Assembly: GCF_012927305.1 (NCBI RefSeq)
Contig: NZ_JABBGH010000003.1
Span: forward strand, 434,001-498,000
DNA: 64,000 bases
Direction: 5' to 3'
DNA from: Hymenobacter polaris
GTDB lineage: Bacteria; Bacteroidota; Bacteroidia; Cytophagales; Hymenobacteraceae
Shown here one piece after another: positions 52,237-56,877 of this stretch; positions within the stretch are counted from its first letter, which is position 1, and each line of letters begins with the position of its first letter. A program made the position numbers and the translations under genes. The notes under the pieces were generated by a model. It saw only the letters and a program-made list of their open reading frames with translations, made no database searches and had not been told where the DNA came from.

Positions 52237-52734
52237 ATGCCCGAACCTCTGCTTTCCGCCGCCCAGCAAGCCTACCGGCGGCAGGTACTCAGCCCCGCCA
52301 AGCTGCGACTGTTTTTCTTGCGCAAGCTGCCCATGGCGTGGCTGGCGGGTTTGCGCCTGCGCACCCTCACGGCCACCGAAGCCAGCGTCGCTATCCGCTA
52401 CAAGTACCTCACCCAAAACCCGTTTGGCAGCCTCTATTTTGCCTGCCTGGCCATGGCGGCCGAGCTGGCGTCGGGCATTCAGGGGCAGCTGCACTTGCAA
52501 GGGGCGGGGCGGGCTTCCATGCTGGTGGTGAGCCTGCAGGCCGAGTTTAGCAAGAAAGCCGTGGGTACTATCGTCTTCACCTGCGCCGACGGGGCCACCA
52601 TTGCCGCCGCCCTGGCCGAGAGCCGCGCCACCGGCGAGGGCCGCACCGCCGTGTGCACTAGCACCGGCCGCGACGAAGCCGGCGCCGTGGTGGCCGTGTT
52701 CCGCGTCACGTGGTCGTTCAAGGCGAAGAAATAA
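52237..52734 (+). CDS. DUF4442 hotdog-fold protein
   Basis: The 165-residue protein fits DUF4442, a hotdog-fold family related to thioesterases and acyl-CoA-binding proteins. It contains FLRKLPMAWLAGLRLRTLTA near 28-47, YLTQNPFGSLYFACLAMAAE near 63-82, a central helix, and strands VGTIVFTCADGATIAAALAE and VFRVTWSFKAKK at the end. The catalytic acid of thioesterases cannot be placed with confidence. The start MPEPLLSAAQQAYRR is preceded by a 47-nt gap after the PPC gene. It is convergent with the DisA_N-domain gene across a long repeat. Confidence 0.85.
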   Translation: MPEPLLSAAQQAYRRQVLSPAKLRLFFLRKLPMAWLAGLRLRTLTATEASVAIRYKYLTQNPFGSLYFACLAMAAELASGIQGQLHLQGAGRASMLVVSLQAEFSKKAVGTIVFTCADGATIAAALAESRATGEGRTAVCTSTGRDEAGAVVAVFRVTWSFKAKK

Positions 52735-52921: not shown

Positions 52922-54505
52922 CTACTTCGCCCGCTCTTCTTCTAGGCTTTCCTTGGTCATCACGTCCACCATGCCGTCTTCGCTCACTACCACTACCAGG
53001 GTCGGGAAGTCGGAGCTTTCGACGTAGCGGATAGCCGAGTTGTAGCGGGCGCCGCGGGTGCTGTTGCCGTGGCCGCTGCTGGCCTTGCCGTCCAGAATGA
53101 CGCCAATGGAGTAGCAGTAGCCCTGCGGGTCGAGCATAACGGCGCCGTCGATAGCCGTGACGAGCTGGGTGATGGTGGGCGTGAGCACCACCGGCTCGAT
53201 GAGCGTGCACTGCAGCTTGAGGCGGTCGGCTTCGGCCAGCGCCTCGGTGGTGATGACCAGCAGCGTGCCCTTGGGCTGGCGACTGGCTTCGAGCACCACT
53301 TGCCAGAGGCGCTCCAGCTGCTCGGCCTTCGGAATGCCGAACGTGCGCTTGTACTCGCGCTTGAAGCTGAGGCGGTTGAGGCGGGGGCGGGCCAGGCCGG
53401 GCAGGCCGTAGCGGCAGCGCAGCAGCGTGTGGCCGGCGTGGGCCAGCTCCCAGGTGTAGTAGGTCAGGAAGTGGAAGGCGAAGAGGTCCTCGCGCTCGGC
53501 GTCGTAGGTGCCCACCTCGCGGCCTAGGGCGTACACCTTGTCGGCATCGGCTAGCAGGTGAATGCCGGGGGTGGTCATTTCCAATAGCTTGCGCACGGCC
53601 CGGTAGTCGGTCAGGTCCACGGGGCAGGTCAGGGCGAATACCTCTTCCAGGTTGGGGTGGCCGCGGCGGGCCAGCAGCAGGCAGCCCACGCCCTCGGCGC
53701 CCTCGTAGCGCAAACTCGAAATGGTATTGATGATATAAAAGAGCCGCTCGGCGCCGGGGGCGGTGCTGCTGCCCCGCGCCAGGCGCTCGCCGGAATTCCA
53801 GTCGGCCGAGCCCACGGCCAGGGCGGGCGCGTCGAGCAGGCCGCGGCCGGCGGCGCGCAGCAGTTCCTCGGTGTCGCGGGGGCGGTAGAGCAGGCCGGCG
53901 CCCGGCTCGGGCTCGGTCAGGGCCTTCACGGTTTCCTCGTTGAAGCGCGTCATGGCGGCGTTCAGCAGCGAGTGGGGCAGCGGGCGGCCGTCGGTGTAGG
54001 CGCGGCCTGGCTTCAGGGCCGGGTAGGCGCGCAGCGGCTTGCGCTGCACGCGCAGGATGGTGCACACGTAGTAGCCGTTGAGCAGCAGGGGCCAGGTACT
54101 GAAATACTCGTGGTCGGCACCCTCGGCCAGCTCCTGCAGCACCGGCACCAAAACCATGCGGATACCTTTGCCAATGAGACGGTTGCGCAGGTCTTCGGGG
54201 TTGATGGTGTCGTCGAGGGGCGTGGTAGGCAGGGGAATCTGACCGAGTAGCACCAGCATGCGGCCGCGCTCGGCCACGTCGGCGAGCGGCTCGGTTGGCA
54301 GCTCGGTGCCGTCGGGGCCCACCTCCTGCACAATGGGCAGGCTGGGGTCAACCGGCAAGCCCAGCACCTGCACGTAGGGTTGCAGCTCGTCGTCGAGCGC
54401 GTCGAACAGCGCCTGCGCAATGGCCTGCGCGGCGTTGCGGTAGCGCCGCTCGTGCGGCCAGATGCGGTGGGTAACGGGAACGGTGGCGACTTCGACGTAC
54501 GACAT
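52922..54505 (-). CDS. DisA_N/diadenylate-cyclase-like domain protein
   Basis: This 527-residue protein has a large N-terminal region of unknown fold (about 1-385; ALFDALDDELQPYVQVLGLP, SSLRYEGAEGVGCLLLARRG). A C-terminal domain resembles DisA_N/DAC (about 400-510), with GTLLVITTEALAEADRL and IDGAVMLDPQGYCYSIGVIL, where DGA at 453-455 is the usual catalytic motif. The second motif, normally RHR, reads GARYNSAIRYV with Arg-Tyr-Asn at 487-489. DAC enzymes join two ATP into c-di-AMP. The changed second motif leaves activity open. The ATG at 54505 (MSYVEVATV) was chosen over one 56 codons upstream. Confidence 0.78.
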   Translation of the reverse strand: MSYVEVATVPVTHRIWPHERRYRNAAQAIAQALFDALDDELQPYVQVLGLPVDPSLPIVQEVGPDGTELPTEPLADVAERGRMLVLLGQIPLPTTPLDDTINPEDLRNRLIGKGIRMVLVPVLQELAEGADHEYFSTWPLLLNGYYVCTILRVQRKPLRAYPALKPGRAYTDGRPLPHSLLNAAMTRFNEETVKALTEPEPGAGLLYRPRDTEELLRAAGRGLLDAPALAVGSADWNSGERLARGSSTAPGAERLFYIINTISSLRYEGAEGVGCLLLARRGHPNLEEVFALTCPVDLTDYRAVRKLLEMTTPGIHLLADADKVYALGREVGTYDAEREDLFAFHFLTYYTWELAHAGHTLLRCRYGLPGLARPRLNRLSFKREYKRTFGIPKAEQLERLWQVVLEASRQPKGTLLVITTEALAEADRLKLQCTLIEPVVLTPTITQLVTAIDGAVMLDPQGYCYSIGVILDGKASSGHGNSTRGARYNSAIRYVESSDFPTLVVVVSEDGMVDVMTKESLEEERAK

Positions 54506-54600: not shown

Positions 54601-55449
54601 CTACAGCTGGAATATAACCGGCAAGGTCATCTTTTGCTTTATCGGCTGGCCCTGAAATTGGGCCGGCTCCCATTTGGGCGCCGCCTTAATGAGGCGCACG
54701 GCCTCCTCATCGAGCCCCGAGCCCTTTTTTTGCAGCACCCGCGCGTCGGTCAGCGAGCCATCGGGCTGCACCGTAAATTCCACCATCACGCGGCCCTGAA
54801 TGTGGCGCTGCCGGGCCAGGGCAGGGTATTTCTGGTTGGTTTGCAGGTACTGAAAAAAGGCCGCGTTGCCGCCCACTGGCTGGGCCGACTTATCGGGCCG
54901 GATGATGCCCGCCCCGTTGGCGGTCGTGCCTACCGTCGATACCGTGCCGGGCGCGGCCGCCACGGCGCCGGGCGGCAGCGGCTTCGCGTCGGCCAGTTTG
55001 CCGGCCACCTGCACTACGTCGCCCGAGCCGGGGGCCAGCACGAAGCTCACCGGCACTGCCACGCGCTGGCGCACCACTTGGCCGTGCGAGTGCGCGGGCG
55101 TCCAGCGCGGCCCGGCCTTGATGAGGCGGATGGCCTCGGCATCGAGCAGCGGCGCCACGGGCTGGGTTACGGCTACCTCATCCACGGTGCCGTTTTTTTC
55201 TACTACAAAGCTCACGTTGACGGTGCCCTCCTGCTTGGCTTGCAGCGCGGCGGCTGGGTATTTCTGGTGCGTGCTCAGGTAGTCGGCGTAGGCCTGGGGG
55301 CCGCCCTTGGGCACGGCCGGCTGCTCCACGGCGTCGTAAATGCGCTTGGGGTCGTTGGGGTCTTTGTACTTGAGCTTGACCTTGTCGGTGGTTTGGGCCA
55401 GGGCGGGCGCGGCGGCCAGCAGGCCTAGGGCCAGGAAATAGGGCTTCAT
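54601..55449 (-). CDS. TonB-like protein with two C-terminal domains
   Basis: The 282-residue protein has a signal (about 1-18, ending ALAQT). A first TonB C-terminal domain lies at about 50-140, with YPAAALQAKQEGTVNVSFVV and LDAEAIRLIKAGPRWTPA. A second lies at about 195-282, with YPALARQRHIQGRVMVEFTV and LDEEAVRLIKAAPKWEPAQF. The doubling is complete, with no decay. With a cleavable-looking signal and no clear proline-rich periplasmic spanner it may not span from inner to outer membrane as classical TonB does, so its partner is uncertain. A -7 box lies 31 nt upstream of the start. Confidence 0.87.
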   Translation of the reverse strand: MKPYFLALGLLAAAPALAQTTDKVKLKYKDPNDPKRIYDAVEQPAVPKGGPQAYADYLSTHQKYPAAALQAKQEGTVNVSFVVEKNGTVDEVAVTQPVAPLLDAEAIRLIKAGPRWTPAHSHGQVVRQRVAVPVSFVLAPGSGDVVQVAGKLADAKPLPPGAVAAAPGTVSTVGTTANGAGIIRPDKSAQPVGGNAAFFQYLQTNQKYPALARQRHIQGRVMVEFTVQPDGSLTDARVLQKKGSGLDEEAVRLIKAAPKWEPAQFQGQPIKQKMTLPVIFQL

Positions 55450-55580: not shown

Positions 55581-56768
55581 CTAAATGCTGAGCTGAAACG
55601 ACTGGCCCTGCCCCTGGCCCTTGAGCGACGACTGCCGGATAATTAAATCGCCCGAAATGACGGTGGTGTGGGGCTGGAAGCGCTCGCGCTGCCGCACCTG
55701 CTCCAGAAACAGCATCGCCGCCTGCTGCCCAATGCGGTAGGGATGCAGGTTGACGGTGGTGAGGCTGGGCTCAATCATGGCCGAGAGAAACTCGTCGCCG
55801 AAACCCACAATGGCGATATCCTCGGGCACGCGCCGGCCGCGGCTGCGCAGGGCCAGCAGCAAATCGAAGGCGTTGGTGTAGTTGATGGCAAAAATGGCAT
55901 CGGGGGGCTCGGGCAGGGCCAGCCAGGCATCGAGCGCAGCCACCGCCGAAGCCGGCCGGAAGTCGATGTGGGCGCACAACTCCTCGCGCACCGGCAGCCG
56001 GTACTTGTGCAGGGCGGCCTCGTAGCCCGCCTGCCGCTGCTGGCTGATGAGCAGCGAGGCCGGCCCGGCCAGGATGGCAATGCGCTGGCAGCCCTGCTCA
56101 ATGAGGTGCTCGGTGATGGCGAACGCGCCCCGGTGGTCGTCCAGAATCACCTTGGCGCTGTTCACCTCGTTGCACACCCTATCGAAGTGCACCACCGGAA
56201 TACCGCGCAGCGCCGGTTCCTTCACGTGGTCGAAGTTCTCGGTTTCGCGCGAGTGGCAGATGAGCAGGCCGTCTACCTGGCTGGCAATCAAGGCTTGCAC
56301 GCTGCTCACCTCGGTGGCGTACGACTCCTTCGACTGGCAAATCATGACCCGGTAGCCTGCCTCGGTAGCCACCTGCTGGATGCCGCTGACGGCGGTAGCG
56401 AAGAACGGCCGCTCCAGGTCGGGTATCAGCACGCCGATGGTGTAGGTGGCCTGGTTTTTCAGGCTTTGGGCCAGCAGGTTGGGCTGGTAGCTGAGCTGGC
56501 GGGCCGCGTCGAGAATGGCCTGGCGCGTGACGGGGCTGATGTCGGAATGCCCATTAATGGCCCGCGACACGGTGGACGGCGCCACGCCCACGGCCCGCGC
56601 CACGTCGCCTAGGGTGGCTTGGTGGCGGCGGCGCCCCAGGGTTTCGCCGGCCGGCCGCGCCTCCGTAAAATGGTATTCGCAGGCCCGGCAGAAATAGCGC
56701 TGTCGGCCCCGCACGAAGCCGGCTTTCATGACGCCGTCGGCGCTGTGGCACTTTACGCACTTAACCAT
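55581..56768 (-). CDS. LacI-family regulator with N-terminal zinc ribbon
   Basis: This 395-residue protein starts with a zinc-ribbon-like segment: CVKCHSADGVMKAGFVRGRQ then RYFCRACEYHF (about 4-35), with four Cys in CxxC pairs. That pattern is like the N-terminal zinc ribbon of IS1-type transposase partners. A LacI helix-turn-helix follows (about 50-100): TLGDVARAVGVAPSTVSRAI then NGHSDISP. The rest (about 110-390) is the periplasmic-binding-like effector domain, ending in TTVISGDLIIRQSSLKG. It is divergent from uxuA and probably controls the hexuronate/SusC-SusD genes in response to a sugar. The ATG at 56768 was chosen because the zinc ribbon begins there. Confidence 0.9.
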   Translation of the reverse strand: MVKCVKCHSADGVMKAGFVRGRQRYFCRACEYHFTEARPAGETLGRRRHQATLGDVARAVGVAPSTVSRAINGHSDISPVTRQAILDAARQLSYQPNLLAQSLKNQATYTIGVLIPDLERPFFATAVSGIQQVATEAGYRVMICQSKESYATEVSSVQALIASQVDGLLICHSRETENFDHVKEPALRGIPVVHFDRVCNEVNSAKVILDDHRGAFAITEHLIEQGCQRIAILAGPASLLISQQRQAGYEAALHKYRLPVREELCAHIDFRPASAVAALDAWLALPEPPDAIFAINYTNAFDLLLALRSRGRRVPEDIAIVGFGDEFLSAMIEPSLTTVNLHPYRIGQQAAMLFLEQVRQRERFQPHTTVISGDLIIRQSSLKGQGQGQSFQLSI

Positions 56769-56877
56769 TGGTGGGGTGGGATGGAAGATGGATAATGTAA
56801 AGATAAGTTCTAAGGCGCAAGTTGGTAGCGAGAAAAAAATACTTAAAAATAATTTAGTAATAAACAAGGAAAATCAG

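Follow-up and report, generated by a model that had tools for sequence, protein, structure and literature searches.

Diadenylate cyclases (DACs) are commonly recognised by two motifs, DGA and RHR, and the question raised by a gene in the Hymenobacter polaris window analysed here (a stretch of 64,000 nucleotides) is what a DAC-like protein may be, and do, when the second motif is missing. The product, hereafter referred to as paralogue A, has DGA but not the RHR of canonical c-di-AMP synthases (CdaA, DisA or CdaS type), with IDGAVMLD around the first motif and GARYNSAIRYV around the RYN that stands in the place of the second. The original prediction gave these residues correctly (DGA at 453–455 and RYN at 487–489 in 527 aa), as the translation confirms, but described the N-terminal region as unassigned, which is not so: it is made up of the Pfam domains DACNG and DACNH, both of them named "probable sensor domain". 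The features of the gene are as follows.

52922..54505, minus strand: paralogue A, DACNG-DACNH-DAC protein of 527 aa (ORF with translation, Pfam)
53837..54463, minus strand: DACNG probable sensor domain, residues 15–223 (Pfam, 160.2 bits)
53435..53746, minus strand: DACNH probable sensor domain, residues 254–357 (Pfam, 92.8 bits)
52949..53290, minus strand: DAC domain, residues 406–519 (Pfam, 40.5 bits)
53141..53149, minus strand: DGA motif, residues 453–455 (translation)
53087..53092, minus strand: Asp472-Gly473, within ILDG and fixed throughout the branch (alignments)
53039..53047, minus strand: RYN motif, residues 487–489, where RHR would stand (translation, alignments)

Domain architecture

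With a Pfam cut-off of 27 bits for each of DACNG, DACNH and DAC (for DAC the gathering score of PF02457), paralogue A exceeds the cut-off for all three domains in the order DACNG-DACNH-DAC, and beyond the sensor-named domains and DAC no output domain was found by Pfam. Its closest named relatives are 86% identical. No match was found in PHROGs or the phage collection, PADLOC gave a single chance-level row (E 0.042), a sequence search of the PDB gave insignificant rows only, and a promoter and terminator scan at the locus found nothing.

Arg-x-Asn in the DACNG-DACNH-DAC branch

Since loci found via motif patterns would carry a recruitment bias into any count of the motif, those obtained with an ILDG-containing pattern (L049–L128) or with ILD and R-x-N patterns (L129–L133) were left out, and ORFs were recruited by the N-terminal 345–375 residues of four queries. 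This motif-free recruitment gave 96 ORFs and 66 distinct relatives, with 10 outside Hymenobacteraceae (L008, L012–L017, L134, L190 and L192). D453, G454, D472, G473, R487, N489, R493, Y494, S508 and D510 are present in 65 of the 66, the sole exception being L041, whose ORF is frame-split before the DAC domain, and position 488 is Tyr in 56 relatives, Phe in 8 and Leu in 1. All nine sequences of an earlier alignment, which spanned six genera and included two proteins of the source genome, have R-[Y/F/L]-N, and a Priestia relative (L018) that was not picked up by the N-terminal queries has RFN. Branch members occur in Bacteroidota, Pseudomonadota, Bacillota and Planctomycetota. On these alignments Arg-x-Asn is the fixed, normal motif of the DACNG-DACNH-DAC branch.

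Two of the viral contigs with relatives outside the 66-ORF count stand out. The first (L133, 5565–6518) is a distant relative with RHN, which lies between RHR and RYN and may bear on the motif change; the other (L132, 5133–7737) has a frame of 868 aa that combines an R-x-N DAC with an extended N-terminal part.

In the alignment to CdaA, Asp453 of paralogue A coincides with the DGA Asp and Arg487 with the leading Arg of RHR. Three residues are lost: the His that precedes DGA (Ile in paralogue A) and, within RHR, the His and the second Arg. The ILDG of paralogue A stands opposite ILPV or YLPL of the aligned CdaA sequences, and Ser508 lies one column off Ser222 of CdaA (SEETG), with which it coincides only if one gap is moved. 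Paralogue A and the CdaA of its own genome (L001) have the DAC fold, the DGA Asp and the first RHR Arg in common, but paralogue A has no CdaA_N membrane domain and no His before DGA, and it carries RYN and ILDG.

Mutants described in two published studies bear on these residues. In Leptospira CdaA, D172A and R203A (the first Arg of RHR) abolish activity and S222A lowers it, and the His before DGA is said there to separate CdaA from DisA types (PMC12974146); D172 and R203 correspond in our alignment to D453 and R487 of paralogue A. In mycobacterial DisA the replacement of RHR by AAA abolished both ATP binding and activity (PMC3328451). The residues that are singly lethal are therefore kept in paralogue A, and the other two were changed only jointly with the third in the published test, so that activity is favoured.

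Against its two nearest relatives, the only pairs likely to be free of saturation effects, paralogue A has dN/dS of 0.17 and 0.15 over the whole gene, and of 0.05 and 0.02 when the DAC domain is taken alone. For three pairs at greater distance the values are 0.28, 0.50 and 0.55 for the whole gene and 0.11–0.36 for the DAC domain. All five pairs lie below 1, with the DAC domain most constrained and DACNG least, and judged by this pattern of substitution paralogue A is a real gene. A private mutation or decay of paralogue A is ruled out by the R-x-N of 65/66 relatives together with dN/dS below 1. The original prediction was right in proposing a divergent DAC branch that has an N-terminal region of its own, but not in treating RYN, the branch's normal motif, as an alteration.

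Predicted structure

The DAC relationship was examined by both profile and structure comparison, as the original prediction had proposed, and it is upheld by the Pfam score (40.5 against 27 bits) and by the predicted model of the whole protein (mean pLDDT 83.3, pTM 0.78). In this model residues 379–521 match DisA (9y9y_D) with Z 12.9 at 3.0 Å over 127 aligned residues, and residues 391–522 match CdaA with AMP (8c4n_B) with Z 12.5, so the C-terminal part of paralogue A is predicted to have a DAC fold. This predicted fold and the lack of a His before DGA are shared with DisA; unlike DisA, paralogue A has RYN rather than RHR, and its DAC domain is C-terminal behind DACNG-DACNH.

The helix and strand order of DACNH hinted at a repeat of the DAC fold, and this domain was therefore folded alone (residues 246–378, pLDDT 88.6). 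The first 13 Foldseek rows are all DACs, with E from 0.0047 to 0.19 (none at or below 0.001) and TM of 0.36–0.51 by query length, after which E jumps to 1.1. All 39 of 39 VIA rows are likewise DACs, with Z 7.0–8.8 over 108–122 residues at 3.5–4.8 Å, values to be read with the VIA warning that a best Z of 7 to 8 is often reached where no true match exists and that Z under 8 may mean little. DACNH has neither DGA nor R-x-N. On these models DACNH likely has a DAC-like fold. Its descent from a DAC, as a degenerate second DAC, is plausible from the models, but sequence comparison gives no support: hhalign assigned the DACNH-DAC pair a probability of 0.7%, and shuffled alignments gave a mean z of 0.06 over 13 proteins against −0.22 for the control, neither of which is a signal. 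DACNG is perhaps GAF-like, with weak fold matches of its predicted model whose highest Z, 5.9, falls short of an informative value.

Two copies in Hymenobacter

The 5.59 Mb source genome has four DAC matches above the cut-off, namely a normal CdaA (DGA and RHR, with CdaA_N), whose presence the original prediction had suggested checking, paralogue A, a second DACNG-DACNH-DAC protein with RYN that is 39% identical to it (paralogue B), and a DACNV-DAC protein with DGA and RHR. A search for a PgpH-type hydrolase found none in this genome. Across the genus, CdaA_N occurs once in each of 120/120 genomes, and DACNH occurs in 119/120 with exactly two matches each, the missing genome being 81% complete. 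DACNH is matched by 126/200 genomes and 3/6 genera of the family and by 43/321 genomes of the order, where 37 belong to the genus itself, 3 to a sister genus (two copies) and 3 to a genus of another family (one copy). The class sample gave 3/345 genomes, all of the same genus, and in the phylum 4/296 genomes matched the DS2_3 model, three of them from the genus. By these counts one lineage has the A/B pair as a fixed feature, and beyond it the wider samples show only sporadic occurrences.

A maximum-likelihood tree of 40 rows places the A sequences (13 rows) in one clade with support 100/99 and the B sequences (11 rows) in another with 100/100, and the single-copy genus g140 groups with B (100/99). 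No sister relation of A and B, and no order in which they join the CBASS-linked clade, is supported in this tree; ten outside rows have long branches or unlike letter composition. The A and B genes may have been domesticated from defence.

The surroundings of the two copies were compared over the best 80 named A loci (L049–L128; 79 Hymenobacter and 1 Solirubrum) and over 16 B loci of the genus. The relevant neighbours in the window and the B locus of the source genome are listed here.

54601..55449, minus strand: TonB_C-domain gene, upstream of A on the same strand with a 95 bp gap; neighbour in 78/80 named loci
52237..52734, plus strand: DUF4442 gene, convergent to A; neighbour in 73/80 named loci
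55581–56867, minus strand: LacI-family repressor; beside the DAC gene in only 2/80 named loci
L144, 8774–14903: paralogue B locus of the source genome, with a Na/H exchanger and a CBS-domain ClC channel nearby

Paralogue B lies near an HI0933-like flavoprotein in 16/16 loci, a Na/H exchanger in 14/16 and a ClC channel with CBS domains in 15/16, and a link of this neighbourhood to ion balance is only a thought. No CD-NTase neighbour was found by tblastn in the 80 named A loci and the 16 genus B loci with the DS-2 NTase, the Priestia NTase, DncV and the CD-NTase-like protein of the source genome as queries, a set that does not cover every CD-NTase kind, and the DS-2 patatin had no tblastn match in the 80 named A loci. 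The LacI-family repressor has an N-terminal CxxC stretch with a weak zinc-ribbon match below the cut-off.

Relation to DS-2 and other CBASS-linked relatives

The only NCBIfam row for paralogue A is DS2_3_antiphage (NF053872, an equivalog), which we infer from its name and matches to be the DAC of the defence system DS-2. The score is 382.9 bits against a cut-off of 630, with residues 14–516 matching model positions 4–487 of 576 and the last 89 positions without a match; paralogue B reaches 429.9 bits, also below 630. As described in the DefensePredictor paper (2026, PMC13092281), E. coli DS-2 consists of a phospholipase, a cGAS-like enzyme and a DAC, and 15/30 DS-2 DAC homologues adjoin CBASS genes. 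In this CHARACTERISED relative, the DS-2 DAC, mutating two predicted catalytic residues eliminated phage defence (PMC13092281); the terms RHR, c-di-AMP and DACNG are absent from that text.

A relative of the DAC gene is held by 18/5,426 E. coli genomes (DNA similarity to the Citrobacter gene). The E. coli locus L134 has patatin, CD-NTase and DAC genes, with the DAC scoring 818.8 bits to DS2_3.

L134, 6001–7746: E. coli DS2_3 gene, with DGT and RYN

This E. coli protein has DACNG and DACNH above the Pfam cut-offs, and the Pfam DAC model gave no match to it at E 0.01. The original prediction had taken an established active DAC subfamily with RYN as its normal motif as evidence against an altered protein, and the E. 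coli DS-2 gene supplies one by genetics only. Plasmids of Citrobacter and Gluconobacter carry the same three genes, the Gluconobacter DAC on the other strand. L134 (4069–13746) is also a dense defence cluster, in which DS-2 sits beside a DncV/E2/Cap3 CBASS and a Cap15-type/mCpol pair.

Among 15 relatives from outside Hymenobacteraceae whose surroundings were read, a CD-NTase gene adjoins the DAC gene in at least 5 (L012, L015, L017, L130 and L134). The set consists of seven plasmids, five viral contigs (some of them truncated by a contig end), an E. coli locus, G023 and a genome from a Dyadobacter-like genus; L191 duplicates the Dyadobacter plasmid, and L190 is nearly identical to it. The five viral relatives came from an alignment query of viral_contigs, in which a single-protein query found no relative. 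In the viral contig L130 (741–4073) three frames follow one another: a CD-NTase-like gene, a frame of about 248 aa that opens with a hydrophobic stretch, and an R-x-N DAC. This is possibly a DS-2 variant in which another effector replaces the phospholipase.

Filing paralogue A itself as DS-2 was rejected, as it scores below the cut-off and has no patatin or CD-NTase partner genes. With the DS-2 third gene it shares DACNG, DACNH and the RYN in its DAC region; it differs in having no patatin or CD-NTase neighbours, in DGA versus DGT, and in being a two-copy chromosomal gene across the genus. With the architecture in Pfam and a relative in NCBIfam and in the 2026 paper, the kind is already known, and paralogue A represents a variant that lacks the DS-2 partner genes and is fixed as a pair of copies.

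In the genus, the DS-2 CD-NTase model matches 0/120 genomes at its cut-off, with six weak matches, and SMODS occurs in 27/120. The notion of a source genome without CBASS, which the SMODS search had suggested, was rejected because of a pair of TIR-STING and CD-NTase-like genes on another contig. At this locus (L172, 5046–7160, contig C4) the TIR-STING gene (prok_STING 106.1 and CAP12-PCTIR_TIR 81.3 bits) is adjoined by the CD-NTase-like gene, with a sigma-54/RtcR-like gene beside them, and these genes are probably a CBASS unlinked to the DAC genes.

Proposed function and alternatives

We consider it fairly probable that paralogue A is an active, sensor-controlled cyclase of the R-x-N DAC branch, related to DS-2 and kept as a core gene. 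We infer its catalysis, product, sensing and physiological role, and this cyclase reading draws on the Pfam domains, the predicted DAC fold, the invariant motif, the two-copy distribution, the synteny and dN/dS. It draws as well on the single mutants of Leptospira CdaA, on the RYN of E. coli DS2_3 and the mutated residues of the DS-2 DAC, on the CdaA found in every genus genome, and on the tree, where A and B each make up one clade. Against it count the absence of the RHR His and second Arg from nearly the whole branch (one viral relative has RHN), the AAA mutant of mycobacterial DisA, the Ile that replaces the CdaA His before DGA, the one-column offset of Ser508, the missing match of the Pfam DAC model to E. 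coli DS2_3, and the negative search for a PgpH-type hydrolase. DACNG and DACNH would sense a signal and control the C-terminal DAC domain, which would join two nucleotides, most likely two ATP to c-di-AMP, with catalysis by head-to-head pairing of two chains. In CBASS-linked relatives the cyclase output would serve phage defence, and in Hymenobacter, where there are two chromosomal core genes beside CdaA without an adjacent CD-NTase, it would probably be a cell-autonomous signal.

Paralogue A could instead be a receptor, in which catalysis went with the loss of the His and the second Arg, and the R-x-N domain would signal a bound nucleotide, such as c-di-AMP made by CdaA, to a partner. Two of the three RHR residues are changed across the branch, synthesis is already covered by the CdaA of every genus genome (120/120), and the AAA mutant of mycobacterial DisA lost ATP binding along with activity (PMC3328451). 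Against a receptor, the branch keeps invariant both the DGA Asp and the first Arg, either of which Leptospira CdaA requires for catalysis (PMC12974146), DS-2 defence was lost when the two predicted catalytic residues were mutated (PMC13092281), and in paralogue A no output domain was found beyond its sensor-named domains and DAC. The DS-2 result could itself reflect lost binding. A receptor nonetheless seems unlikely to us, and the suggestion of the original prediction that the protein may only bind nucleotides is disfavoured by the same invariant residues and DS-2 mutants.

A role in defence in Hymenobacter too, in which paralogue A would cooperate in trans with CBASS genes at other loci, either regulating them or giving a second signal, would fit the relatives in DS-2-like groups beside patatin and CD-NTase, the CD-NTase adjoining at least 5/15 relatives outside the family, and the TIR-STING and CD-NTase-like pair of the source genome. 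Such a role is very improbable in our judgement, given two copies in 119/120 genus genomes against SMODS in 27/120 and the DS-2 CD-NTase in 0/120 at cut-off, and given the stable synteny with the TonB and DUF4442 genes, which is unlike a mobile defence island. A more elaborate form of the cyclase, which we hold to be rather doubtful, is a tandem DAC in which the dead, DAC-fold DACNH would pair with the R-x-N DAC, either within one chain or between two, and in which the branch-fixed Asp472-Gly473 by the base pocket and Asn489 might alter base or linkage to give a product other than 3',3'-c-di-AMP; the same machine would then act in mobile DS-2 defence and, twice over, in Hymenobacter core signalling.

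If the branch is active as a cyclase, the RHR rule fails there and the product becomes a direct question, and should DACNH prove to be a dead DAC, the "sensor" would in fact be a partner of pseudo-enzyme type. A clean setting for a test would be Hymenobacter, with two fixed copies, no adjacent CD-NTase among the loci examined, and a parallel CdaA. Galperin, in 2023, reportedly treats DAC architectures of the DACNG/DACNH type. Our literature searches, which covered work other than Galperin 2023, did not find R-x-N as a branch signature, a DAC-like fold of DACNH or the two copies in Hymenobacter; they found no enzyme assay of an R-x-N protein, and no paper with both "Hymenobacter" and "c-di-AMP".

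The DACNV-DAC protein of the source genome

The remaining DAC of the source genome (L004, 1453–2688) resembles paralogue A in having a sensor-named domain and a C-terminal DAC, and differs in that DACNV replaces DACNG-DACNH and that DGA and RHR are intact. Weak DAC matches of similar length occur in only some of 41 genus genomes.
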